Part shown: piece by piece, positions 2,561-33,574 of the stretch
Numbering within the stretch: position 1 is the stretch's first letter
Layout of the letters: every line of letters begins with the position of its first letter
Virus record (IMG/VR): IMGVR_UViG_3300020159_002599
Location: 1-34,001 of that record
DNA length: 34,001 nt
From: a virus
Strand: one strand, 5' to 3'
Program-made: the position numbers and the translations under genes
Notes under the pieces: generated by a model
The model's database searches: none
What the model saw: the letters and a program-made list of their open reading frames with translations, nothing else
What the model was told of the DNA's origin: nothing

Positions 2561-2752
2561 TTAGATATCTTCGCGTTCACCTTTTGGTTCAAAAAGATTA
2601 GCACGGCGGGTCATTAGTTCCAAATCGACTTTCAACTCATTCATGCGTGCTTCTTGAACAGCAAAAGCAAGTGAAAGAATTGCGAGCAAAACCACTGCAC
2701 CGAATGCCAAAATCCATCCGAGTACAGAAATAATAATCAGAAAGATTGTCAC
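2561..2752 (-). CDS. Small membrane protein, one N-terminal helix
   Basis: 63 residues. It starts at a GTG at 2752 that overlaps the HTH gene's stop as GTGA. Residues 2-31 are strongly hydrophobic (LIIISVLGWILAFGAVVLLA is the core), and the remainder is charged and probably a short cytoplasmic coiled coil (residues 34-63). No family is recognisable. Coupling to the HTH gene suggests the two are expressed together. Confidence 0.6.
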   Translation of the reverse strand: MTIFLIIISVLGWILAFGAVVLLAILSLAFAVQEARMNELKVDLELMTRRANLFEPKGEREDI

Positions 2753-3033
2753 TCTAGAGGCGCTCTCCCACCAGCAATAATTTTTCGTGCCAAAGCAACC
2801 ATTTGCTGGATGAGCGGCTTGGAGACTGCAAGTTCTTCTGCAATCTGAGAATACGATAGTCCTTCAGCATCAGGGCCACCAAATTCACAAGACTCCTTGA
2901 TTGCTAAAGCGCGCGCTTCAATAATGCTTCGGCGTATCTCGGCAACTGCTGGAAGCATTTGATTGTGCAGGGCAATAGAACGCTTGACTGGGTCTTCAAT
3001 TTTTAATACTTCTTTAAGTTTTGACTCAATCAT
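2749..3033 (-). CDS. Helix-turn-helix DNA-binding protein
   Basis: 94 residues. The C-terminal half carries a helix-turn-helix of the sigma-region-4/resolvase style: LSYSQIAEELAVSKPLIQQM (about residues 59-78), preceded by a helical N-terminal region. Such small proteins are frequent in actinobacteriophages as presumed transcription regulators or terminase-small-like DNA binders. Terminase genes are not nearby, so a regulator is the likelier reading. The ATG overlaps the resolvase stop (ATGA) and the stop overlaps the next GTG, so it is embedded in a translationally coupled string. Confidence 0.72.
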   Translation of the reverse strand: MIESKLKEVLKIEDPVKRSIALHNQMLPAVAEIRRSIIEARALAIKESCEFGGPDAEGLSYSQIAEELAVSKPLIQQMVALARKIIAGGRAPLE

Positions 3034-3440
3034 CGTGGCTCTAACTCCGTTATATGTAATACGACTTTTGACTCCCCAGAGACAATTGGTGCCTCAAATA
3101 TAAGGCGCTGAACAATCTCTGGACCGTCTTCCCAAAGTATACCAGCATCAACAAGCCCGTCTATACAGGCTTTGGCAACAGGGAAGTGACCACCAGTGTC
3201 TGCCTTTCCTTTCCCATTACGGCGGTGAGGAATGAATCTAACCTCAATTGCTCGCAGGCGTTTTGGAATCTTTTTTGCTGTAGCAACTGCTGCTGCGGCT
3301 TCGCGCCACTCTTTAACCAATTTCGCTCGTTGGTAGTGATGAAGACTTCGCTCTTTATTCAGCGTCCACATTGTTTCGCCATAAATCTCGATGACGAATG
3401 TTTCTAGTTTTGGTGGCTCTTTACTTTTCTTTGGAGGCAT
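3030..3440 (-). CDS. RusA-like Holliday junction resolvase
   Basis: 136 residues. The RusA pattern is visible in the second half: KADTGGHFPVAKACIDGLVD at 79-98 followed by AGILWEDG at 99-106, giving the acidic residues D81, D94 and D105 and lysine K90, which fit the metal-binding and catalytic set of RusA. The N-terminus (MPPKKSKEPPK) is a basic tail. RusA enzymes are dimeric resolvases of four-way junctions made during recombination-dependent replication. The start at 3440 has AGGG upstream and overlaps the CmoA-like gene by 20 bases. Downstream it is coupled to the HTH gene. Confidence 0.8.
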   Translation of the reverse strand: MPPKKSKEPPKLETFVIEIYGETMWTLNKERSLHHYQRAKLVKEWREAAAAVATAKKIPKRLRAIEVRFIPHRRNGKGKADTGGHFPVAKACIDGLVDAGILWEDGPEIVQRLIFEAPIVSGESKVVLHITELEPR

Positions 3441-4134
3441 AAATCCCTACAAAGTTAAGATTTTGCCAGAACGGCTGGACAACTGAAAATCCAGCACTCT
3501 TTAGCATTCGAATATTTTCTGAAGCGCGTAGCGGTACAAGAACATTTTGCAATGATACACGCTTTGCTTCTACCTGTTCCTCAGAGTAGCCATTATCTTT
3601 TTTCATCTGATGGTAAACACTAACTAGATGGTCTTGTCCACTTGACGATTCTCCCAGAACCTTTTCCACAAGGATGAAGCATCCATTTGGAGTAAGAGCA
3701 TCGTGCACCTGTTTTAATACCTCTTGACGATATTCAATTGGAATAAATTGTAAAGTAAGAATTGACAAGATTGAGTCATATCTCAGCCTTTGCATTTCTG
3801 CATCTGCGATGTTTCCGTGAACGATAGTCACTCGCTCATCATCGGCAAATCGCTTCCTTGCCTTGCTTACCATTGCCGTAGAGGAATCAATGCCGACATA
3901 GTTCACATACATTGATGAACCAAGGTCTTTAATAAGTTTTGCAATCATTTCTCCATGCGAACAACCCAAGTCAAGAATGTGTCCGCCATTCGTAATAATT
4001 GGAGAAATCATTCTTATTACGGTGTCCCGCATATTTTCATATCCTGGAATTGAGCGTCCGAGCATGTCGTCAAAAACATTTGCGACATCATCGTTAAATG
4101 ACCACTCTTTTCCTGGAATAATTTCATCTCTCAT
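3421..4134 (-). CDS. CmoA-like carboxy-SAM synthase family methyltransferase
   Basis: 237 residues, collinear almost from end to end with E. coli CmoA. Shared features are the N-terminal FDDMLGRSIPGY (21-32), SAM motif I LDLGCSHGE (54-62), acidic motif II GIDSSTAM (81-88), LTLQFIP (126-132), NGYSEEQVEAKRVSLQNVL (181-199) and a C-terminal aromatic strand. Arg192 falls where CmoA Arg199 contacts the carboxylate of carboxy-SAM, and Tyr32 where Tyr39 lies. CmoA converts SAM and prephenate into carboxy-SAM, used by CmoB to make cmo5U in tRNA. No CmoB-like gene is visible. Its ATG overlaps the stop of the ParB-methyltransferase gene (ATGA), so that protein is the natural candidate partner. An ordinary methyltransferase remains possible. 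Confidence 0.75.
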   Translation of the reverse strand: MRDEIIPGKEWSFNDDVANVFDDMLGRSIPGYENMRDTVIRMISPIITNGGHILDLGCSHGEMIAKLIKDLGSSMYVNYVGIDSSTAMVSKARKRFADDERVTIVHGNIADAEMQRLRYDSILSILTLQFIPIEYRQEVLKQVHDALTPNGCFILVEKVLGESSSGQDHLVSVYHQMKKDNGYSEEQVEAKRVSLQNVLVPLRASENIRMLKSAGFSVVQPFWQNLNFVGIYASKEK

Positions 4135-5678
4135 AGTGTGATTCCTAGTCTCTTGGAGAATGCTTCTTTTGCTGCTTCTGCCATCCCTAAACGCAGTCCA
4201 CCTGGGTGCGGAAGGTCAAATTCAAACTCAATTGCTGCGCGAAGTTCATCTGGGCTTATTGGTTTTGGGTTGGAACCAACAGCCTGAACTAGTCCGTTTT
4301 TTGCTGTCAAGAATGTGTCAACAGTTTTGAAACCGTGCTGAACTAGTTCTTTGAACTCCGTCTGAGTGTGATACTTCTGGACTTTTGGCTTCGCCGCAAT
4401 ATCTGAAACAATAATTCGTGGCTCATAGTCAAGCGGGAAGCCTCCACTTGATGTGTCATGACCCTTCTTGATGTCACCACGCGCATGGTTGTGCCACCTG
4501 TCTGACTCTGTGCATATCGCTGCTGTGTGTAGTTTTGTGTGCGGAGAGCAAAGAGAGGCAACCAGTTTTATTACATGGATTCTGTCTTGCAAGAATGGAA
4601 TGCTGTTAAAAACACTGGCAATGAAGATTGAATCAAACTGCGTTCCTTCTGCAACACGCTTTAGGAACTTTCTTGTTAGTTCTCTTGCACCTTCAGTATC
4701 AATTGTTTCGTTATCTTTCGCCAAAAAGAATGGCTCAAATGGCGTGCAATCGACGCCTAGTCGGTTGAGAATGTCTGTCTTGTCGCAGAGACCAGCCCCA
4801 AAGTCAATTACGGTAGTTCCGTAGTAACCCTTCCAGAGTTCGACATGCTTAGGGTCATCAAGGTGGAATGCTCCGTTTCGATTTCCAGACGGCACGAAGT
4901 GGCGCAAGAAATCTTCTAGGAATGTTGGCGTAAGTATTTCCACCCGTTGGTTTTTGCGCCTAAACGAGTTGTGGCGTAGAAGGTCGGCGTAGCGTTCTTG
5001 AATGTCAAAGTCCATTGATAGGAGATTGAGCATTGCTGTTACTGCTTCTTCTCTATCTTCTGGAACTGTGACGACATTTATAAAGTCATTGCCTTCTTGG
5101 GCGGCAAATGTAAGACGCGCGCGACCATTTAGAACCTTAAAATCTGGCGTGCATATAACTGGCATTGGGGGAAGACCATGCGACTTGATTTGACCAGCCA
5201 TCACGATGGCATGCTGTTCCATCCAGCGCTCATTTTTGGTCATTAGACGCAGGACTGACTGCGGCTTCATCTTCATGACTGGGTACCAGTCTGGGGAGTC
5301 GACTTCAAGGTCTGGTAGTAAATTTATCTTATTTATCATCTCATCCATCGAAAGAAGCGCTTCTTTCATGTCCGTGGACGACTGGTTCTTATAAAGGTCG
5401 TTTGTGGCGCGATTGTAGAGCACATTTATGCCCATACGACGCTCTACTGGCATTTGGGGTGTCCTAACCACAGGAACTGTCTTTGCGCCCATCCTGGAGG
5501 CTACTAGGTGCCTTTGGTGGCCGCTCAGAATCTCTCCGTTTATGTCCGCATAGATTGGCAATAGCCAGCCAAATTTACGCAGGGATAACTCAACCAGATT
5601 TAGGCGCTCTTCATCGGCTTTTCTGGGGTTATAGGCAGACGGACGAAGGTCCTCAATTGGGGTTAGGACTGGCTTCAT
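4131..5678 (-). CDS. Fusion of two ParB-fold modules and a methyltransferase-like domain
   Basis: 515 residues. Module 1 (about 5-72) is a ParB/sulfiredoxin-type domain, with YNPRK and ILSGHQRHLVASRMGAKTVPVV. Module 2 (about 155-225) looks like a second, divergent copy with VLNGRARLTFAAQEG and VVTVPEDREEA. From about 285 a Rossmann methyltransferase-like domain begins (VIDFGAGLCDKTDILNRLGV at 290-309, then FDSIFIASVFNSIPF at 348-362) and runs to about 460. ParB-fold proteins include CTP-binding clamps, nucleases and kinases. The ParB box is not typical of a partition ParB, and no parA is present. It couples to the tandem ParB gene upstream (TAATG) and the CmoA-like gene downstream (ATGA). A DNA-directed methyl- or carboxymethyltransferase is a hypothesis. 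Confidence 0.75.
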   Translation of the reverse strand: MKPVLTPIEDLRPSAYNPRKADEERLNLVELSLRKFGWLLPIYADINGEILSGHQRHLVASRMGAKTVPVVRTPQMPVERRMGINVLYNRATNDLYKNQSSTDMKEALLSMDEMINKINLLPDLEVDSPDWYPVMKMKPQSVLRLMTKNERWMEQHAIVMAGQIKSHGLPPMPVICTPDFKVLNGRARLTFAAQEGNDFINVVTVPEDREEAVTAMLNLLSMDFDIQERYADLLRHNSFRRKNQRVEILTPTFLEDFLRHFVPSGNRNGAFHLDDPKHVELWKGYYGTTVIDFGAGLCDKTDILNRLGVDCTPFEPFFLAKDNETIDTEGARELTRKFLKRVAEGTQFDSIFIASVFNSIPFLQDRIHVIKLVASLCSPHTKLHTAAICTESDRWHNHARGDIKKGHDTSSGGFPLDYEPRIIVSDIAAKPKVQKYHTQTEFKELVQHGFKTVDTFLTAKNGLVQAVGSNPKPISPDELRAAIEFEFDLPHPGGLRLGMAEAAKEAFSKRLGITL

Positions 5679-6994
5679 TATTCTGTTCTGCGAGCGCTCT
5701 TACGCTTGGAACGGCGCTGGCGCGTACTCACCCAAGAATCGCCCTGAATGTTAAGCATCTCCATCATTCCACCGCAAACTTCTTCATACGAGAATCCGTA
5801 AGCCTTGAACATCTCTTCTTCCCAAGAGTCAAAGTATGAACGCTCAAACTTAATTTCCCACTTGCCAATATTGGCAGTGACATTTCTTGCCTTGTCTTCG
5901 TCTGTTGACTTTCCTTTTTCTTCTTTGATGCCCCATCCTGCAACATCGCTAATCAAATCATCAACATCATCTCCGCTATATCCAGTTCCATCAAATGAAG
6001 ACATCGAGCGAAGCATTTCAGCAAGTTCAACATGGTCATAAGTTGCGAGGTCAGCAGTCTTGTTGTCGACTAGAACAATTTTTGCTGCGGCTGCTTCGTC
6101 TAGGTCAACAAATGTCACGGCAATTTCTTTCCAGCCCAACATTTTTGCAGCCTTCCAAGTGTGGTTTCCTACAAGGATTGAGTTGTCTAACTTGTTGACA
6201 ACAATCGGCCTAAACTGACCATTCTCTTTTAGGGACTCTGCGATAACACCAATGTCGCCTTGTCTTGCGTTCATCGGGTATGGGAAAACACTATTGATGT
6301 CGACATTTGTTGTCTCTGTAATTACGGATTTCATTCCAGCCTTGGCAACTGCTTTTTTCTTTGCAACTGCCTTACGGGCACGAGGGGGAATTGCTTTTGC
6401 ATCTAGCAAATTAAGGCGACGACGCAACTCGTGGAGAATAGAGTCGTTGTCTTTATAAGCGCTTTCAAAATCTTTTGCCCAATCCGCATAGATATCATCG
6501 TCAACAAGCACGCGATACGAGCCAACGCAGATGCGAATACCGTCTCCAATTTTTCCTGTTCGCTCTCCTTCTGGTGCTGTGAATTCTCCAACACCGCTCA
6601 TGAGAGCCTGAAGTTGGTCAATATCAACGCTGGTGAATCCAGTTCCTTCTAGGTCTGGCAGGCTTGACAGCAGTTCAAGCAGTTTTGAATCGTCATAAGC
6701 CGACGCATCCGATGTGCGGTTATCTGCAAGAACAATCTTGCGCGCTTCATGCTCATCAACATCAACCCAAGAAACTGCAATTTGCGTCCAACCAAGGCTT
6801 CTTGCTGCACGCCATGTGTGATTGCCAGCAAGGATTGAATTGTCTTTGCGATTAACAACAATTGGCTTGTACTGCCCATTGACCTCAAGCGATTTGGCAA
6901 TAGCATCAACATCGCCACGCCGTGGATTTTGGTGATACCCCTTAAGGATTGAGATATCTACTACTTCTGTATCTACTTTAATTTGTTCTGACAT
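5678..6994 (-). CDS. Tandem ParB-fold protein (internal full-length duplication)
   Basis: 438 residues built from two homologous halves. Each half has a ParB/sulfiredoxin-type core: copy 1 about 8-135 with NPRRGD, PIVVNRKDNSILAGNHTWRAA and IVLADNRTSD; copy 2 about 224-355 with NARQGD, PIVVNKLDNSILVGNHTWKAA and IVLVDNKTAD. Each core is followed by a shorter module with a strand, an SxY element, a Trp, an AY pair and a closing L(N)L/LNI helix (about 150-197 and 370-417), so the duplication covers nearly the whole unit. A basic Ala/Lys linker (199-220) joins the halves, and the end is very basic. The ATG at 6994 has AGAGGA upstream and a TATACT element precedes it. No partner ParA is visible, so plasmid partition is unlikely. 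Confidence 0.82.
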   Translation of the reverse strand: MSEQIKVDTEVVDISILKGYHQNPRRGDVDAIAKSLEVNGQYKPIVVNRKDNSILAGNHTWRAARSLGWTQIAVSWVDVDEHEARKIVLADNRTSDASAYDDSKLLELLSSLPDLEGTGFTSVDIDQLQALMSGVGEFTAPEGERTGKIGDGIRICVGSYRVLVDDDIYADWAKDFESAYKDNDSILHELRRRLNLLDAKAIPPRARKAVAKKKAVAKAGMKSVITETTNVDINSVFPYPMNARQGDIGVIAESLKENGQFRPIVVNKLDNSILVGNHTWKAAKMLGWKEIAVTFVDLDEAAAAKIVLVDNKTADLATYDHVELAEMLRSMSSFDGTGYSGDDVDDLISDVAGWGIKEEKGKSTDEDKARNVTANIGKWEIKFERSYFDSWEEEMFKAYGFSYEEVCGGMMEMLNIQGDSWVSTRQRRSKRKSARRTE

Positions 6995-7030
6995 GACATC
7001 CTCTGCACAATGGTATAGAGGAAGTATAGC

Positions 7031-7378
7031 CTATTCGATAATCTTGCGCTTGTTTAATTCCATCTTTTTACGGATTTCTGCTATGAAAGCAAGATTCTCT
7101 TCTCGGGTGCAAGGCTCTTCTGCTCCAGACTGAAGCGCTAATTGATTGGACTCAATCTGCATACGACGAGATATTGGGTCAATGACCTGCCTAAATTCAG
7201 CCCATGATGGCCAATACTTAGAATTCATCTCAACTGCACGAATCGCCGCTTTGGCTGACTCGTAAGAGTACGGTGCAAGATTCTCTTCCCACCTCAGAAC
7301 CTCTTCAACAATCAGTTTCTTTGATGGAAAAATAATATTAAGTTCAGCAACTATTCGGTCTGCTTCATCTGGCGTCAT
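7031..7378 (-). CDS. Helicase-loader-like protein (G39P-type fold suspected)
   Basis: 115 residues from the ATG at 7378, chosen over a TTG at 7393 because AAGGA lies seven bases before it. It begins MTPDEADRIVAELNIIFPSK and continues with an acidic-aromatic pattern leading to a SYESAKAAIRAVEMNSKYWP helix and PSWAEF. This resembles the N-terminal domain of phage SPP1 G39P and related loaders/inhibitors of DnaB-type helicases, which are about this size. The C-terminal third is charged and probably flexible, as in G39P. Placement next to the replication-initiator-like gene agrees. The match is by pattern only. Confidence 0.55.
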   Translation of the reverse strand: MTPDEADRIVAELNIIFPSKKLIVEEVLRWEENLAPYSYESAKAAIRAVEMNSKYWPSWAEFRQVIDPISRRMQIESNQLALQSGAEEPCTREENLAFIAEIRKKMELNKRKIIE

Positions 7379-7598
7379 TCCAAAGTCCTTCAATTATTTT
7401 GTGTTGCAATTCGGTTACTTCTTCACTCATGAACGGGTCAAGGTCTGTCGCCCGTATCATATTCGCCACTTCAATCTTGGCTTGAGCGAGCATATTAAAG
7501 TATGTCTGCCCATAACGCCAGCCAAAAGGTCTAAACAACTTCTCGTGCTTTATGCTTACATCAGCAATAAAGTCGTTGTACGAAATGTACTCCGTCAT
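7365..7598 (-). CDS. Conserved-looking small protein of unknown function
   Basis: 77 residues, helical, with an aromatic-rich first half (RPFGWRYGQTYFNML) and a conserved-looking acidic second half (DLDPFMSEEVTELQHKII). There are no membrane segments or metal motifs. It overlaps the upstream gene by four bases and the downstream helicase-loader-like gene's ATG by 14 bases. Similar short proteins occur in replication regions of actinobacteriophages as hypothetical proteins. I cannot assign a function. Confidence 0.65.
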   Translation of the reverse strand: MTEYISYNDFIADVSIKHEKLFRPFGWRYGQTYFNMLAQAKIEVANMIRATDLDPFMSEEVTELQHKIIEGLWNDAR

Positions 7599-22222: not shown

Positions 22223-24376
22223 CTATGGCTTTGTTTTAGCGTAAAGCCTTTTCATCAAGTCACCGACAACGCTCGCCTGCTGGACTTCATCGCCTTCAGT
22301 AACTGCATCAACGACTGCTCGTTTTGCGTCAATCAAATCGTAGATATCTTCATCAATTGTATTTACGCCAATTAAGTACCATGCCTGGACGCTGTTTTGC
22401 TGTCCGATTCGGTGACATCTATCTTCGGCTTGGTCATGCTCGCCAGGAGTCCATCCTTGTTGGACAAAACAAACATCGGAACCAGCCGTAAGAGTAAGAC
22501 CAACTCCACCAGCCTGAAGGTTGAGAACAATAACTCTTGCTTTTGGGTCTTTCTGAAACGAGTCAACAGCGTGCTGTCTATCTTCCATTGAGTCCTGCCC
22601 GCTAACACGAAGATTTCCATACTTACCAGCGAGGTAATCAACGATGGCGACATTGTGTGCAAAAACAACAAGTTTTCTATCGCATGATTCCAAGAATGAA
22701 TCAATCCACTCAATTACTGATTCCATCTTTGCATCAGCAGCGAGGCGCTTCAAAACTGTAGTTCTACGCAAGTGCTCTGCTGTATCTGAAGAGCGGTATC
22801 CATTCTCTGCAAGGAACGCAAGAAGGTCGCCTTCTGCTTTTCTGTACTCCACATATCCTTTTCCAGATGGCTCAACATGGACAACATTTCGTGTCTTTGC
22901 TGGAAGTTCTTTTAGCACTTCGTCTTTTGTTCTGCGAATGTAGCAGTTCTGGCGGAGTTTCATGTTTAGTTCGTTTAGATTTGAAGCGCCTTTTGTATCC
23001 CAACCAAATCCATTGTGGTACGCATTCGTGTATCGCTTGAGGAATGCCCACTTGCCACCAAAGCGACTTAGCATCCCCAGAATCTCTAACTGACTTACAA
23101 GTTCTTCTGGCCTATTCGTAACTGGTGTTCCAGAGAGAAGCAAAACTGTTCCAGATTGCGGAACCTTCTTTGCAATGTCGCGAACTGCTTCTGTGCGTTT
23201 TGTCTTGCTGGTCTTTACATAGTGAGACTCGTCAAGGACAAGACCCATTGGTTTTAGATGCATGATTGGCTCAACAAAGCGACCAATAATGTCATAGTTC
23301 ACGATGTTCACATCTACATTTGCGATGTTTCCTTTACCACTCAAGATGTTTACCGAGCGATGTGGAAGCCACTTGTTTATTTCACGCTTCCAGTTTTCCT
23401 TGAGGGATGCTGGGCAGACGATAATTGCTGGGAATGCGTCACGGTATTCAAGTGAAGCAATTGCTTCTACTGTCTTACCGAGACCCATTTGGTCTGCGAT
23501 TAGGCACCGACCTACTGAACCAGCGTAGGCAACTCCAGCCTTTTGATATGGCATAAGAGTTCCATTGAGGGTGGGGATACTTATTTCTGCGTCGGTAGAT
23601 GTTGATTGAACAAGTAGTTCTGTTGACTTCTTGGTCAATTCAATAATCTTTTCGCGGACCGAATCCTCAACATCAAATTTGTACTTATCTGCTAGTTCAA
23701 GAACTCCGATAGTTATCGGCGCAGTCCAGTGTTTTTTCTTCATGTCCCAAGTTCGCTGGGGAAGTTTTTTGACCTCAACAATTATTTCTGGGTCATATGG
23801 AAATTTAATTACAGCCATGCCACGCTTACTAATGGTGAGTGACTTTTCTGTGTCTTGAATTACTTCAGGCAATTGGGTTTGTGCTTCCTGCGAGACATTG
23901 AATTGGTACTTAGATGCAAATTCTGCAACTTCCAATTTAGCCGATTCTGGAGCAATCCAAACAGATGCTGCAGAATTCCATACAACACCAGTAATTTGTT
24001 TTAATTCTGATGTCACTTGCTCGTCATATTGGCAGTGAATTACAAAATTGTTATTTACTTTTGTAATGCGCTTATCAACTTTTGAACCGTACACAGAATC
24101 AAGGTCTTGATGGATATCGGTGTACGCCCGCTTGGGTGGTGTGATTTCATCATAAACAAAGCCGAGTTTTTTCAACTGCTTTGAATATTTGGCAAGCATT
24201 ATCCATGCAGAATAAGCCATTGTTGGGGTCCAGTATGATTCTGGAATTAGTGCTAATTGGGTTCCGATACGAGAATCAGATTTATTAAAACCAACACTGT
24301 CTTCAGTTACTGCGCCATCACAAGAAAGCGCGATTGACCGCAATGCTTCTGCTAGTTGCGAGTATTCACTCTCCAC
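22223..24376 (-). CDS. SNF2-family helicase with N-terminal HARP-like repeats
   Basis: 717 residues from a GTG at 24376. Superfamily 2 motifs are clear: ADQMGLGKT (Lys301), DESH at 382-385, LSGTP at 414-418 and QAEDRCHRIGQ at 649-659. Before the motor are two similar ~55-residue units (110-165 and 187-240), each ending in W-x-A-P, then an LA/FA helix and KYxF, resembling HARP repeats of SMARCAL1-type annealing helicases that act on branched DNA and stalled forks. Phage relatives are presumed replication or recombination enzymes. It lies between the lysis gene pair and small membrane genes, away from the replication block. Confidence 0.9.
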   Translation of the reverse strand: MESEYSQLAEALRSIALSCDGAVTEDSVGFNKSDSRIGTQLALIPESYWTPTMAYSAWIMLAKYSKQLKKLGFVYDEITPPKRAYTDIHQDLDSVYGSKVDKRITKVNNNFVIHCQYDEQVTSELKQITGVVWNSAASVWIAPESAKLEVAEFASKYQFNVSQEAQTQLPEVIQDTEKSLTISKRGMAVIKFPYDPEIIVEVKKLPQRTWDMKKKHWTAPITIGVLELADKYKFDVEDSVREKIIELTKKSTELLVQSTSTDAEISIPTLNGTLMPYQKAGVAYAGSVGRCLIADQMGLGKTVEAIASLEYRDAFPAIIVCPASLKENWKREINKWLPHRSVNILSGKGNIANVDVNIVNYDIIGRFVEPIMHLKPMGLVLDESHYVKTSKTKRTEAVRDIAKKVPQSGTVLLLSGTPVTNRPEELVSQLEILGMLSRFGGKWAFLKRYTNAYHNGFGWDTKGASNLNELNMKLRQNCYIRRTKDEVLKELPAKTRNVVHVEPSGKGYVEYRKAEGDLLAFLAENGYRSSDTAEHLRRTTVLKRLAADAKMESVIEWIDSFLESCDRKLVVFAHNVAIVDYLAGKYGNLRVSGQDSMEDRQHAVDSFQKDPKARVIVLNLQAGGVGLTLTAGSDVCFVQQGWTPGEHDQAEDRCHRIGQQNSVQAWYLIGVNTIDEDIYDLIDAKRAVVDAVTEGDEVQQASVVGDLMKRLYAKTKP

Positions 24377-28503: not shown

Positions 28504-28535
28504 TATAGCCTGACTAAATCTGCCTATCGGCTATA
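28504..28535. terminator. Weak hairpin at the end of the glycan-type cluster
   Basis: TATAGCC (28504-28510) pairs with GGCTATA (28529-28535) around an 18-base loop that includes the stop codon of the phosphodiesterase-glycosyltransferase gene. A T-rich region follows on the minus strand. The stem is 7 bp only. It may reduce transcription from the glycan cluster into the surface-protein gene. Confidence 0.25.
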
Positions 28536-29761
28536 TTCCTGTTCTCCACTGGGACTAAAACCCCATGATGGCGTGCCTGAATATCTTTGCGCACCCATGT
28601 CATGCCGTATGTTGAGTCAAGATTTTCTGTTCCCTCTCTACGCTTCAACCGTTCCGCCATCGACTGAAAGGTCGGGTCGTCGCTGAGATTGAGGTACGAG
28701 TTGTGGGACCAAGGCAGGTCGTAAAAGGCTGGTGCATTTACTAAGAGCGCTCCAGCAGTAGTCCAATGCTCTTCAATTCTTGGCTCTTGGCACACGATTG
28801 GACCAGATAGTGCGTATGAAGGAACATCGGCACCGACAAGAGGTCTATCAACTTCAAGCATCTTCTCGATGATGTTTGCGTCCATCGAGATGTCTGAATC
28901 AACATAAAGAATCGCTTGGTAGTTGACAACTCCGTGGTTTAGTTCTGTGCAGTCTTCGCCCCAATGATGACCGCTAGTGACGCGCACTCTTTGGGCAAAT
29001 TCACGGATTAGGTTGCGACCAGTTTCAATCCGAATCCACCTATTCCCAGATGTGACTTGGGCATGCATATCGTTGATTGAGTATGTCCAATAGTCTCCAT
29101 TGACTTCTTTGAGCGCATCAATAACTTCGGCAAATGGCTCAAGGCCACGGTTGTCAAGTTCAAATGCAGAGAACCATTTAACATTTGGAAACCTGCGCAT
29201 GATTTCTGCTTTGTCGGCCATCCAGTTCAGATGTTCTTTTGCATCACACTTCCACCCGACAAGCGGGGTGGCGATAACAAAATGCATCTGGTAGTCGACT
29301 GCTCTTAGAAATGGCATCTTTATCTTCTTTATGTAGTCGGAGCAAACACCTGCGTAGTGAGCGAGATTAAGAGTTTTTACATCAGAATGAGACTCTGGCA
29401 TGACCATGACACATTTATTTGATGCAAGTGGTTTCCCAGGAAAAGCCCAGACAAAACTGTTGCTAGTTATTGTGTAGTCGTCTGTATTGTGGAAGAAACA
29501 ATGTAGCCCAGCGTCTTTGCAGATTCCAAGTGCTAAATCGTTCTTGCAATGAATCCAAAGTTTCTGCGAGCGTTCTTGCAGCCAACCAATATCAATATGG
29601 TGCTGTGGTCCATCATGCCCAAGAAATAAGCCGTCTTGGTTTGCCCAAACATCTACCTCAACATCAAATCCTTGGCTTATTGCTGAGTCAATGTATTCGG
29701 GAGTGTTTTCAAGTTCTGGATTAGGACCCTGAAGGTTTCCTCTGTGAGAGATATAAATCAT
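28514..29761 (-). CDS. Fusion of GDPD-like phosphodiesterase and glycosyltransferase
   Basis: 415 residues. The N-terminal ~145 residues match the glycerophosphodiester phosphodiesterase-like fold: YISHRGN gives His6, followed by ENTPEYIDSAI, VEVDVW with Glu35 and Asp37, and LGHD with His49, so the catalytic His/Glu/Asp/His set appears intact. From about residue 155 a GT-A-type domain follows, with YQAILYVDSDISMD (281-294), whose DSD would bind metal and sugar nucleotide, and a C-terminal TENLDSTYGMTWV. The substrate is unknown; phosphodiester-linked glycans or teichoic-acid-like polymers are plausible. The ATG overlaps the stop of the upstream methyltransferase gene (ATGA). Confidence 0.7.
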   Translation of the reverse strand: MIYISHRGNLQGPNPELENTPEYIDSAISQGFDVEVDVWANQDGLFLGHDGPQHHIDIGWLQERSQKLWIHCKNDLALGICKDAGLHCFFHNTDDYTITSNSFVWAFPGKPLASNKCVMVMPESHSDVKTLNLAHYAGVCSDYIKKIKMPFLRAVDYQMHFVIATPLVGWKCDAKEHLNWMADKAEIMRRFPNVKWFSAFELDNRGLEPFAEVIDALKEVNGDYWTYSINDMHAQVTSGNRWIRIETGRNLIREFAQRVRVTSGHHWGEDCTELNHGVVNYQAILYVDSDISMDANIIEKMLEVDRPLVGADVPSYALSGPIVCQEPRIEEHWTTAGALLVNAPAFYDLPWSHNSYLNLSDDPTFQSMAERLKRREGTENLDSTYGMTWVRKDIQARHHGVLVPVENRNIADRQI

Positions 29762-30465
29762 TTTTCAACCTGAACCCAAATCCAGTTCTTATGGTTGTCT
29801 CCAGGACCAGTTGGCCTGATGTCGTATTTAAAGTTTTTGAAGCCAATTTTTCCAACAAGGTCATCGAATAATGTTTGTTCATCCTGAATGCTTACATCTG
29901 AATGGCCGTTTGTACTACCAGCATCATAATTGTTGTCGTAGTAGCCAGCGGTTGGAATTTCACCCTTGCCGCCATACCCCATCTGGAAGCACAATTTTCC
30001 TCCTGGCTTTAGAACCCTGTAGATGTCGGTCAAAATGTCAAACCTGATTTTATGAACGCAAATATGCTGAAAGCAGATTACGGCAAATACCACATCGTAA
30101 ACATCATCTGCAATAGCGAAAAGATTGTCTCCGCTTGTTACATACAGGCTTGGTTCGGCAATGTTATTTGCCTTTACATTTAGCCGTGCCTTCTCGATAT
30201 TTATGTGAGAAATGTCTATTCCGTCAACGCGCGCGAAACGGCCTGAGAACTTTACCAAGTTACGTCCAGGTCCACATCCGTACTCAAGAGCGACTAAACC
30301 ATTTGTGTCAAAATCCTTAAACAAGAAATTGTCATAGTCTGACCAGTTGTTATGGGCATCGTAGGAGCCGACTACTGGGTCCCTGAAGTCAAGAGACCAC
30401 TGGGCTGCATATTCGTCATAGTACGAATTCTGCATGCCTAAGTAATCGTCTTTGCCCTTACTCAT
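29758..30465 (-). CDS. SAM-dependent methyltransferase of the glycan cluster
   Basis: 235 residues from the ATG at 30465, chosen because GGAG lies ten bases before it and it overlaps the upstream stop (ATGA); a 17-residue longer reading lacks support. Class I methyltransferase motifs are LEYGCGPGRNL (about 60-70), VDGIDISHINIEKA (about 80-93), VYDVVFAVICFQHI (about 122-135) and YRVLKPGGKLCF (about 148-159), as in small-molecule or sugar methyltransferases. It differs from the CmoA-like protein and is not a paralogue by eye. Its place between nucleotidyltransferase and phosphodiesterase-glycosyltransferase genes suggests methylation of a glycan or lipid-linked sugar. Confidence 0.8.
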   Translation of the reverse strand: MSKGKDDYLGMQNSYYDEYAAQWSLDFRDPVVGSYDAHNNWSDYDNFLFKDFDTNGLVALEYGCGPGRNLVKFSGRFARVDGIDISHINIEKARLNVKANNIAEPSLYVTSGDNLFAIADDVYDVVFAVICFQHICVHKIRFDILTDIYRVLKPGGKLCFQMGYGGKGEIPTAGYYDNNYDAGSTNGHSDVSIQDEQTLFDDLVGKIGFKNFKYDIRPTGPGDNHKNWIWVQVEK

Positions 30466-31835
30466 TTGTTGTTCTCCAAGTAATAGTTGAGGTCTTCTGG
30501 GGTACCAATTCCCCACATCTTGGGAACTTCTTTAATCCTAATCTTTTTTCCATCCAGAATGGCTTCATTGAATACTGGACAGACATAGAACTCATTATTG
30601 GTTCGGATGTCCTTCTCAATCATCTGGTTGGCATATTTCACATAGTCAGAGCCATGCTTCCAGTAATAGATTCCAACAGTTGCATTATCCGAGATTGGGT
30701 TCTTCTCGGCAACTTCAGATACAAAACCATCTTCTCCAAGTTTTGCATACGACCATTTTGGATGGGTCGCCTTGAAGGTCAGGATTCCTCCATCAATCTC
30801 ATCCGCGCCAAATGCATAAAGGCACTCGTTGCTATCCCACTCAACTACTTGGTCTGAGTTTGCCATCAATAATGGCTGGTCATTGTCGATTAGGCCAGAG
30901 GCAAGAAGGGTGGTGCAGGCAGCACCTTCTGTCATTCCATCAACAAGGACAATGTCGCATCCTGGTTTGATAAGGCTTAGAACCTGTTTTAGGTTGTACT
31001 TTTCATAGTGCTCTTTTTGCACAAGGAAGATGAAGTGGGCATCAACATTCAAATTGTCCACAACGACCTGAATCATTGGCTTGCCATTGACTTCAATCAG
31101 CGGCTTCGGGAATGTGTATCCAGCCTGCGCAAAGCGTGAGCCAGCACCAGCCATTGGTATCAGTACATTCATCTTTTCGTTCCTCCAAGCAACTGGCCTT
31201 TTTCCACGCGATTCAATCTCGTCTACAAACTTCATAAGGCTGAACTTATTTAGGTCGTCGGAGTTTTTAATTGCAAAAAGATTTGCGCCAGAACTCAACG
31301 CTCCCTCTCTGCCTATGTGTGAATCTTCGACGATTATAGTATTCGCAGGGGTTGAATCAAGCGAGACTATGCACTGCCAGTACATCTCTGGGTGGGGCTT
31401 GTGATGCTTAACATCCTCGTTACTCATGATGTAACTCACATATTTGAGGACACCAATTGCGTCTAGCGCGGTGATTACCGTTTCGCGGATTGCATTACTG
31501 GCTACGGCAATCTTCCACCCACGCTCTTTGAGGGTCTGCATGATGTCAATTGCGACATAGTTCTTTGGAAATTCTGCCAGTATTTTTAGCGTGGCCTCTT
31601 GCTTGTCTTCCCAGATTCTCTGGTGTGCTGATTCTGGGAGTCCTTTATCCAGCGTCAGCATCTTTAACTTGGTTGTTGTCCCAAGTCCGTCATATCTGGA
31701 CAAATGTTCATCACGGGTGATTACATACTTTGGGTCAATCCTGCTCAGAGCAATATTGAGCGAGTCGTAGTGGACATCGCGTGACTCAATCAGAACTCCG
31801 TCTAGGTCAAAGATAACCAGGAAGTTACTTTTCAT
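30462..31835 (-). CDS. Fusion of HAD phosphatase and sugar nucleotidyltransferase
   Basis: 457 residues in two enzymes. Residues 1-210 are a HAD hydrolase of the beta-phosphoglucomutase type: FDLDGVL with Asp10 and Asp12, VASN with Ser113, Lys146 in HHKPHPEMYW, and IIVEDSHIG with Glu170/Asp171. Residues 222-457 are a nucleotidyltransferase: VLIPMAGAGSRFAQAGYTFP gives the G-x-G-x-R-F phosphate loop and the PKPLIEVNGKPM segment (243-254) the sugar-binding lysine, ending with MWGIGTPEDL. Together they could make an activated sugar from a sugar phosphate for the adjacent glycosyltransferases. Sugar identity cannot be told. It starts at 31835 with an 11-base overlap with the upstream gene. Confidence 0.82.
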   Translation of the reverse strand: MKSNFLVIFDLDGVLIESRDVHYDSLNIALSRIDPKYVITRDEHLSRYDGLGTTTKLKMLTLDKGLPESAHQRIWEDKQEATLKILAEFPKNYVAIDIMQTLKERGWKIAVASNAIRETVITALDAIGVLKYVSYIMSNEDVKHHKPHPEMYWQCIVSLDSTPANTIIVEDSHIGREGALSSGANLFAIKNSDDLNKFSLMKFVDEIESRGKRPVAWRNEKMNVLIPMAGAGSRFAQAGYTFPKPLIEVNGKPMIQVVVDNLNVDAHFIFLVQKEHYEKYNLKQVLSLIKPGCDIVLVDGMTEGAACTTLLASGLIDNDQPLLMANSDQVVEWDSNECLYAFGADEIDGGILTFKATHPKWSYAKLGEDGFVSEVAEKNPISDNATVGIYYWKHGSDYVKYANQMIEKDIRTNNEFYVCPVFNEAILDGKKIRIKEVPKMWGIGTPEDLNYYLENNK

Positions 31836-32481
31836 TTGGATTTATCCCTGCATGTCGGTGCCATTTGTTATGGCGAACAATACTCTTGCCGTTGCACTTC
31901 ATGACATATTTATTACGAACGCGCATTGACCACTCAACATCTTCTTCTTCGTTCCACCCGCGTGACTCATCAAGCGGCTCTTCTAGCATGACATGCTTTT
32001 TGAGCATAAAGAATCCGCCAGAGATATACATGTACTGGGTTTGAGTCCAGTCGTTATAGTCAAGAGACCACGCCCTACCGTGTCCTGGCTTGTCCCACAA
32101 TGACCAGTCCATCGGGTTTCGCGCGCCAGTTACTAGGTATTGGGGGCATGAGCATATTTCCCAATCGGTCCCGAACTTCTTAAACTCTTCATACCAACCA
32201 GCATCAAAAATGTGGTAGTCGTGCATCAAGACAATATTTTCGTACTTGGAATTCTGAACAAGAATATTCTTCTTACGAGTAATCCATCGTGGCTTAATCG
32301 ACTCGTCAAAGTCAATCTTCACAATGTCATCTCCTTCAATTCCAGTTGAATCACCACCGCCAACAAAAAGGATTTCGTACTGTGGAATGGCAAGACTGCG
32401 GATATTTTCAATTATCTCTGCAAGCCTATTTTTATCTTCGTAGACAGTGATTATTCCAAAGGTCCACGGAATGTCATGCAT
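31825..32481 (-). CDS. GT-A-type glycosyltransferase
   Basis: 218 residues from the ATG at 32481; a GTG three codons up is possible but lacks better support. The N-terminal PWTFGIITVYEDKNRLAEII and EILFVGGGDSTG follow the nucleotide-binding pattern of GT2-like enzymes. ENIVLMHDYHIFDAGW (about 81-96) supplies a D-x-H-type metal site in place of DxD. SRGWNEEEDVEWSMRVR (about 173-189) resembles the conserved E-D acceptor-site motif of the fold. The ATG lies within the last codons of the upstream glycosyltransferase gene, indicating coupled translation. Substrate unknown. Confidence 0.72.
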   Translation of the reverse strand: MHDIPWTFGIITVYEDKNRLAEIIENIRSLAIPQYEILFVGGGDSTGIEGDDIVKIDFDESIKPRWITRKKNILVQNSKYENIVLMHDYHIFDAGWYEEFKKFGTDWEICSCPQYLVTGARNPMDWSLWDKPGHGRAWSLDYNDWTQTQYMYISGGFFMLKKHVMLEEPLDESRGWNEEEDVEWSMRVRNKYVMKCNGKSIVRHNKWHRHAGINPNEK

Positions 32482-33574
32482 TCTCCGCACCTTCTAGTAT
32501 TGAGCGATATGCATGGTTCCATTCAGGTCCACGCTTTTCCATAGTGAATAGGTTCTTGACATTTTCAAGGTTCTCTTCAACTTCGTCTTTACGCATTGAT
32601 GGGTCCATAAGTTCGCTTAAGTGGTAGTCCCACTCACTCTTGTTTCGCGCAACTCTTCCAACTCCATAACTTGCCATAAATTCATACTCAGGTGACCATG
32701 ATGAAATAAACGGCACACCAGCGGCAACATACTCAAGTCCCTTAATAAAGGACTTTGCATGGTTGAATTGAACATCGTTAAGTGGCACAATTCCGATATC
32801 AATTGGTGCAAACAGTTTTGGATAATCCAGAATTGGGGCCAGCGGGAGAGTCGTGGTGGAATCTCCGCTAATGCCAAGTTGGTCTGCAGCATGTGCTGCA
32901 TTTGTCTGCAAGTGCCCAGAATGGTGAAACTTTAGACCGTTGCTATTTATAAATGAACCAACTGAATCTGCCACCGATTCAAGGTCGCTTGAACGCCAAG
33001 GCGTAGCACCAACCCAGCCAATCGTTGGTTTATCAACAAAATTAACTGGCTTTCGCTTCCACCTGTCTAGGTCTATTCCATTACGCACCATAAAGACATT
33101 GTCATTGAATTTTGAATAGTAGTCACCAAGGAATGGGGTCGAAACAATAATCGCGTCAGCAAGTGAAATTATTTTATTGTAAATATCTCGGTTGTTCTCT
33201 GGACTTTTCTCTGGGTCAGTTACATCGTAGGCACGGTTTGTCTTTTCTAGGCCGTCATGCCAGTCGTCAATATCCACAACGATTGTCTGCCCCATTGCCT
33301 TTGCTTTATGCATCTCTTCCAAAACTCGCTGGTGCATAATCAGTTTGAAAACAACTATGTCCCAGCCGTGGATTGCCTTTTCATCCTCAACCATTAGACC
33401 GAACCCATGCGCCTCGTTAAACCCAGGGAAGCCCATTCCTGTACCCCACTGATGCTTCTTTAGTTCCCTTGATGGAAGAAGGCAGCGATACCAACCACAG
33501 CCATTTGGCTGAAGCGGCTTGGTTCCCCACGACCAGTCAAATGTAAGAAATGCAATATTTGGGTTCTTTTCCAT
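32474..33574 (-). CDS. GT4-like (GT-B fold) glycosyltransferase
   Basis: 366 residues. Features of a GT-B retaining transferase are a first domain with WDIVVFKLIMHQRVLEEM and VVDIDDW, an interdomain VRNGIDLDRWKR (about 163-174), then PTIGWVGATPWRSSDLESVA, and the donor-site helix KSFIKGLEYVAAGVPFISS (about 273-291), where the usual E-x7-E is shortened. It is the first gene of the minus-strand glycan cluster, reading away from the plus-strand sulfotransferase gene. The ribosome binding site (AGGA, very close to the ATG) is weak. Confidence 0.78.
   Translation of the reverse strand: MEKNPNIAFLTFDWSWGTKPLQPNGCGWYRCLLPSRELKKHQWGTGMGFPGFNEAHGFGLMVEDEKAIHGWDIVVFKLIMHQRVLEEMHKAKAMGQTIVVDIDDWHDGLEKTNRAYDVTDPEKSPENNRDIYNKIISLADAIIVSTPFLGDYYSKFNDNVFMVRNGIDLDRWKRKPVNFVDKPTIGWVGATPWRSSDLESVADSVGSFINSNGLKFHHSGHLQTNAAHAADQLGISGDSTTTLPLAPILDYPKLFAPIDIGIVPLNDVQFNHAKSFIKGLEYVAAGVPFISSWSPEYEFMASYGVGRVARNKSEWDYHLSELMDPSMRKDEVEENLENVKNLFTMEKRGPEWNHAYRSILEGAENA

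Follow-up and report, generated by a model that had tools for sequence, protein, structure and literature searches.

A widespread phage cassette pairing ParB-fold proteins with a CmoA homologue, most likely a second kind of carboxy-SAM DNA modification

Until 2025, carboxymethylated DNA was deemed unnatural, and its sole known natural maker is a C5-cytosine enzyme, CmoX. In the system of Synechococcus phage S-B43, published in December 2025, CmoA makes carboxy-S-adenosylmethionine (Cx-SAM), CmoX, a homologue of C5-cytosine methyltransferases, makes 5-carboxymethylcytosine in GC motifs, and CmoY ligates glycine to this base (PMC12783734). ParB-domain genes were noted near CmoX, and the authors report that CmoA-linked carboxymethyltransferases of the N6-adenine or N4-cytosine type were not found (PMC12783734). 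In a separate survey, fusions of ParB and Methyltransf_23 domains were found to be phage-enriched, ParB folds to bind CTP, ATP or GTP, and a bacterial fusion of ParB with an S-adenosylmethionine (SAM) methyltransferase to bind ATP (PMC12704722). Here we describe a gene cassette in the IMG/VR virus record IMGVR_UViG_3300020159_002599, a stretch of 34,001 bases that was analysed as a whole and is referred to as the window. It encodes a tandem ParB-fold protein (PP), a ParB-ParB-class-I methyltransferase fusion (PPM) and a CmoA homologue. An earlier note on this DNA knew of no described natural system of such composition, a statement overtaken by the S-B43 system with its ParB genes near CmoX.

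The cassette is real and widespread, and its likeliest role is carboxy-SAM DNA modification of a second kind, not homologous to the first. We propose that it constitutes a phage DNA-modification module in which PPM would be a DNA carboxymethyltransferase non-homologous to CmoX, and we put the probability of this reading at about 0.6. It is preferred because the trio is conserved across phyla, because PPM occupies the slot of CmoX, and because neither CmoX nor CmoB accompanies it.

Conservation of the cassette and alternation with CmoX

Relatives of PPM were gathered from IMG/VR, GTDB genomes and isolated phages, giving 148 loci after removal of duplicate contigs, of which 136 extended 1.5 kb or more downstream and could be tested for CmoA. 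A CmoA gene was found within 4 kb downstream in 133 of these loci and upstream in one more (134/136 in total). Since CmoA matches occur in only 84 of 50,697 phage records (~0.17%), the association goes beyond chance. Of the 125 loci with room to test, 124 have a ParB gene immediately upstream of PPM, so that the trio is indeed conserved in other genomes, a check that the earlier note had proposed. Among isolated phages, all 14 full-length PPM matches adjoin CmoA (12 Pseudomonas records, Gordonia phage Evaa and Aeromonas phage HJ05). The phages and prophages carrying PPM loci span several phyla of hosts, including Gordonia, Aeromonas, Pseudomonas, Vibrio, Photobacterium, Lachnospiraceae, Oscillospiraceae, Verrucomicrobia, Desulfovibrionaceae, Leptolyngbya and Chloroflexi, and identity to the window PPM falls to 34-40% among them.

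ParB - PPM - (HAD-like) - CmoA - terminase is a frequent gene order, the cassette standing directly upstream of the terminase genes in many relatives. The composition originally described was right about the trio, but it missed both this usual adjacency and the conserved HAD-like component, a protein of ~140-165 residues (phrog_32036, no assigned function) that is present at 123 of the 148 PPM loci and at none of the CmoX control loci. Its motifs read DLNxT, ITARP and ESNxxTR, with Asn replacing the usual second catalytic Asp (examples are L030:7272-7766 and L160:9990-10487), and one member shows weak similarity to polynucleotide kinase. A profile of this cassette protein had no match in the window, including the HAD/NTP-transferase gene at 30462-31835, and most members of the window's own phage group either lack the component or have it at a distance.

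The CmoX cassettes are built in a similar manner. In phage PaBG the order is ParB, C5-methyltransferase, CmoA, a hypothetical gene and an asparagine (Asn) synthase, and in Streptomyces phage TurkishDelight it is ParB, ParB, C5-methyltransferase, Asn-synthase with a glutaminase domain, and CmoA. PPM replaces CmoX in the CmoA/ParB cassette and excludes it: PF00145, the family to which the S-B43 transferase belongs, was found in seven of eight CmoA phages without PPM as against one of 23 PPM records (Fisher p 2e-5, a guide only, the records being partly dependent and partly incomplete). The lone C5-methyltransferase among these 23 records (L018) has an ordinary GN motif and not the GR of CmoX, and a search for a hidden CmoX elsewhere in these genomes turned up nothing but this ordinary enzyme. 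PF00145 is absent from the window, where the CmoX hallmarks (SPPC, Arg350 and GR in place of GN) were likewise not found. The homology search of the S-B43 study began at CmoX and would therefore miss PPM (PMC12783734). CmoB (PF08003) was found in none of the 23 PPM records, which leaves no known tRNA route for carboxy-SAM, and a CmoB/tRNA role for the cassette was rejected on this ground.

Further arrangements were seen around these genes. An ordinary GN-type C5-cytosine methyltransferase lies upstream of the cassette, at ~2727-3722, in the Alphaproteobacteria-linked PPM phages L017 and L018. At the genome end of TurkishDelight (L214, 1668-6696), the two ParB genes, the CmoX-type C5-methyltransferase (SPPC, GR), the glutamine-hydrolysing Asn-synthase and CmoA make up a candidate 5-carbamoylmethylcytosine pathway. 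Alcaligenes phage Afa-NA1 (L092) encodes CmoA at 6471-7223, with both PF00145 and PPM absent across its 78 kb record; a third type of CmoA partner may exist.

Predicted properties of CmoA, PPM and PP

The window CmoA has TIGR00740, the CmoA model, as its best NCBIfam match over nearly its whole length (residues 10-235, 1.5e-47), and YecO/CmoA as its closest solved relatives (1e-33 and 6e-30). Its score of 162 bits lies below the curated cut-off of 193.3 bits, but SpCmoA, the Synechococcus enzyme with biochemical proof, scores only 115.6. Most contact residues known from Escherichia coli are kept (Tyr39, Asp62, Gly64, Ser66, Asp89, Glu164 and Arg199), and the differences from E. coli at positions 90, 117 and 132 are found in SpCmoA likewise. 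TIGR00740 was the best match of all four PPM-linked CmoAs that were scanned. In a maximum-likelihood tree, PPM-linked and CmoX-linked sequences interleave, and the CmoAs of Evaa (with PPM) and TurkishDelight (with CmoX) are sisters with support of 100/99 and 51% identity; only this join is relied on, the tree having long branches at SM1, Evaa/TurkishDelight and the short-lid group. The partners of CmoA have been swapped, closely related CmoAs serving either type of transferase, an argument for PPM using the cofactor that CmoX uses.

PPM matches phrog_5475, a family with no assigned function (4e-96). Residues 7-71 were identified as ParB_N (E 5e-4), a family that 35 of 40 homologues also match, and G53, H54, Q55 and R56 are invariant in the 40-member alignment. 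The two ParB-like halves match each other with 96.5% probability in a profile-profile comparison, indicating a second ParB-like domain, which has NGxxR instead of GHQR. The AlphaFold2 model computed on this alignment had a predicted local distance difference test score (pLDDT) of 90.8 and a predicted template modelling score (pTM) of 0.88, and the methyltransferase domain modelled alone reached 91.6 and 0.89. The best Foldseek matches of this domain were PH0226, ToxA, CcbJ and glycine N-methyltransferase (GNMT), at a template modelling (TM) score of ~0.5 with poor root-mean-square deviation, which supports the fold class only; no DNA methyltransferase was among the 50 best. Sequence profiles gave a weak UbiG match, and 13 of the 40 homologues matched PF13489 (Methyltransf_23).

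Structure prediction and profile searches thereby upheld the identities first given to the modules, with one correction: a cytosine-methyltransferase type had been considered, but PPM belongs to a different class-I branch (UbiG/CcbJ/ToxA-like) and is not a cytosine-C5 methyltransferase, so that the modified atom should not be assumed. Homology to CmoX or to known DNA methyltransferases was undetectable. Pfam scans of PPM gave no PF08003 Methyltransf_9 (CmoB) match, nor, across the 40 homologues, PF01555 or a similar N6-adenine/N4-cytosine match. The (D/N)PPY and PC motifs of DNA methyltransferases are absent from PPM, and the strand-4 motif is NSxPF. The domain has a class-I fold with intact SAM-binding motifs and is thus not degenerate, which the earlier note would have taken as a refutation. 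The invariant motifs of the alignment are GHQR, DxGxG (D292-x-G-x-G296), FEP (F314-E-P), NSxPFxxDR (N358-S-x-P-F-x-x-D-R366) and PKxQK (P431-K-x-Q-K435, a strictly conserved basic patch), together with E419.

PP contains ParB-fold modules at ~residues 7-135 and 228-350 (Pfam ParB_N, E 1.2e-16), with a GxxR-type motif reading GNHTWR, and it shares 43% and 36% identity with a ParB protein beside CmoX-CmoA in TurkishDelight. By the presence of ParB_N and GxxR, both PP and PPM belong to the ParB-CTPase fold, and their ParB folds possibly bind nucleoside triphosphates. In PADLOC, PP and PPM matched type II methyltransferases across the ParB domains alone, and these matches were discarded. ParA (PF13614) is absent from the window and from the whole records of seven relatives, in agreement with the original description of the cassette, which does not qualify as a ParABS system.

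Proposed function and alternative readings

We envisage that CmoA, by homology to the proven enzyme, would convert SAM and host prephenate into carboxy-SAM, and that the class-I domain of PPM would then transfer the carboxymethyl group to phage DNA. The ParB-fold domains of PPM and the separate PP might place or gate the transferase on DNA, possibly in a nucleotide-dependent manner. The resulting carboxymethylated base would conceal the genome from restriction enzymes and may serve as a handle for further modification. Our confidence differs between these steps: it is strong, on sequence grounds, that CmoA makes Cx-SAM, good that PPM uses it, and moderate, from the ParB domains and the equivalence with CmoX, that the substrate is DNA, while protection of the phage DNA by the product is presumed by analogy. 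The carboxymethylation cassette suggested in the earlier note is the best-supported explanation, by virtue of its conservation, the CmoX slot and the lack of CmoX and CmoB.

Several points weigh against this proposal. Two PPM loci (L159 and L168) have no nearby CmoA. PPM has none of the known DNA base methyltransferase motifs, its nearest folds are those of small-molecule enzymes, and a residue binding the Cx-SAM carboxylate could not be placed in it. Arg199, which holds this carboxylate by a salt bridge in E. coli CmoA (PMC3663124), varies among PPM-linked CmoAs (R, A, E, N, T). The proven SpCmoA, however, has Glu at this position (read from the S-B05 stretch, 100% identical to S-B43), so that Arg199 is dispensable for activity. 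No nucleoside data for PPM phages were found, and the literature searched gave nothing on DNA modification in Samunavirus or PaMx31. Finally, an amide ligase of the CmoY type does not stand beside PPM, except for a possible one in HJ05, and was rejected as a general partner; in most PPM phages the carboxylate would either stay free or be ligated by an enzyme not recognised as such.

The HJ05 gene (L087, 10287-11504) encodes a 405-residue Asn-synthase-like ATP-dependent ligase near the PPM cassette, a possible CmoY analogue. In the same phage, a DAHP synthase gene (6257-7420; PF00793, 1.2e-49) lies ~3 kb downstream of ParB-PPM-CmoA. It could raise the supply of prephenate, the co-substrate of CmoA, but this is only suggestive: HJ05 is the sole clear case among 33 records, ~209 phage records have a DAHP synthase, mostly T4-like, and a link with the cassette was not retained.

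The small-molecule type of the PPM methyltransferase domain would also suit an enzyme that depends on Cx-SAM and acts on pooled nucleotides or on a nucleic acid other than DNA, the ParB fold holding a nucleoside or deoxynucleoside triphosphate, the methyltransferase domain carboxymethylating it and the HAD-like protein trimming phosphates. The nucleotides bound by ParB folds and by the bacterial ParB-SAM-methyltransferase fusion (PMC12704722) fit this scheme, as do the presence of the HAD-like protein at most loci and the weak polynucleotide-kinase likeness of one member. We nevertheless consider it unlikely, as the interchangeable partner CmoX modifies DNA (PMC12783734), Asn stands in for the second catalytic Asp of the HAD-like protein, which is absent from the window, and no nucleotide kinase or polymerase tied to the cassette was seen.

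The generic class-I fold, the unproven residue for Cx-SAM selectivity and the incomplete retention of Arg199 in the linked CmoAs would be compatible with PPM being an ordinary SAM-dependent methyltransferase, with CmoA serving something else or being a plain methyltransferase itself. The near-obligate pairing (134/136 loci), the TIGR00740 matches of the four scanned CmoAs, the interleaving of PPM-linked with CmoX-linked CmoAs, and the lack of any CmoX or CmoB to consume the cofactor make this unlikely too. It is very unlikely that the cassette tags DNA or a protein for use in packaging or partition, with ParB-like DNA clamps beside the terminase genes and a transferase that modifies a packaging site or protein; the ParB-fold modules and the terminase adjacency in many relatives are in line with such a role, but the window cassette lies amid replication and recombination genes, ParA is absent, and the CmoX cassettes with proven base modification show no link to terminase genes. 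Counter-defence by draining SAM into Cx-SAM, which would starve SAM-dependent host defences and make PPM secondary, is a role that the authors of PMC12783734 discuss for phage CmoA, but it is highly improbable here, leaving unexplained the strict pairing with a ParB-methyltransferase fusion and the alternation with CmoX.

If PPM is a DNA carboxymethyltransferase, there would be two independent routes that lead from carboxy-SAM to modified DNA. More tentatively, and with somewhat less than even odds in our estimate, carboxy-SAM DNA modification may have evolved twice with unrelated enzymes, a widespread class of ParB-gated PPM carboxymethylating a base elsewhere than at C5 of cytosine (a base new to DNA), with nucleotide-switched ParB loading and servicing by the HAD-like protein. 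The proposal offers a likely function for the abundant phrog_5475 family and for phage ParB-Methyltransf_23 fusions, and PPM may also supply a new enzyme for labelling DNA with a carboxylate handle. Isolated phages with the cassette, Gordonia phage Evaa and Aeromonas phage HJ05, make it testable at once.

Genomic setting and comparison with known systems

The three cassette genes are all on the minus strand and overlap as the earlier note had read them, PP and PPM at TAATG (1 base) and PPM and CmoA at ATGA (4 bases). CmoA in turn overlaps the RusA-like gene by 20 bases, which makes the trio part of a longer operon. The RusA-like gene is probably a same-operon neighbour and not a member of the cassette, since no phages but those of the window's own group keep it beside the trio; in this group the trio is placed in the replication/recombination region.

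Table 1. Cassette genes, domains of PPM and the adjoining gene in the window
Feature	Position	Strand	Basis
PP, tandem ParB-fold protein, 438 aa	5678..6994	minus	two Pfam ParB_N stretches
PPM, ParB-ParB-class-I methyltransferase fusion, 515 aa	4131..5678	minus	phrog_5475 match, AlphaFold model
PPM first ParB-fold domain, residues 1 to ~119	5322..5678	minus	Pfam ParB_N, GxxR (SGHQRH) nucleotide-binding motif
PPM second, diverged ParB-like domain, ~residues 120-271	4866..5321	minus	profile-profile match, model
PPM methyltransferase domain, residues 272-515	4131..4865	minus	model, Foldseek
CmoA, carboxy-SAM synthase homologue, 237 aa	3421..4134	minus	TIGR00740 match
RusA-like Holliday-junction resolvase	3030..3440	minus	phrog_34, 2.7e-10

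Profile searches also identified tail, WhiB, RusA and replication-initiation genes in the window, the first 25 kb of which have no near-identity match to isolated phages. A minus-strand cluster at 28514-33574, comprising an unknown 415-residue protein, a class-I methyltransferase that is not CmoA, a HAD and NTP-transferase-like fusion, an unknown 221-residue protein and a glycosyltransferase-like protein, resembles a module for sugar-nucleotide/glycosylation functions. Its methyltransferase (29758-30516) was rejected as a second CmoA, being generic and without a TIGR00740 match. Amid the tail genes, a 717-residue SNF2-family helicase (22223-24376) is similar to the defence helicases ZorD, DpdE and DrmD.

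Among the described systems, CmoA-CmoX-CmoY of S-B43 is alike in that an enzyme of the methyltransferase fold adjoins a phage CmoA and ParB-domain genes are often present too; PaBG and TurkishDelight share the gene order, and the CmoA phylogeny of CmoX systems is mixed with that of PPM-linked CmoAs. It differs in its transferase, which has PF00145, SPPC and Arg350, none of which the window has, and PPM cassettes usually lack CmoY and usually contain the HAD-like protein. The bacterial CmoA/CmoB pathway for cmo5U34 in tRNA likewise combines CmoA-made Cx-SAM with a class-I transferase, but PPM phages have no CmoB, PPM has ParB domains, and the similarity between PPM and CmoB is weak and found only around SAM motif I. 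The phage proteins of phrog_498, in which ParB is joined to an N6-adenine/N4-cytosine-type DNA methyltransferase, have related ParB folds (PP 1.9e-55, PPM 4e-20), whereas the catalytic domain of PPM has neither their PF01555 match nor a DPPY/NPPY motif. The ParB-CTPase-fold/Methyltransf_23 phage fusions share the architecture of PPM, but the survey gave them no function and did not mention CmoA or carboxy-SAM (PMC12704722); the connection of PPM with CmoA, and its cassette of four genes, are new here.

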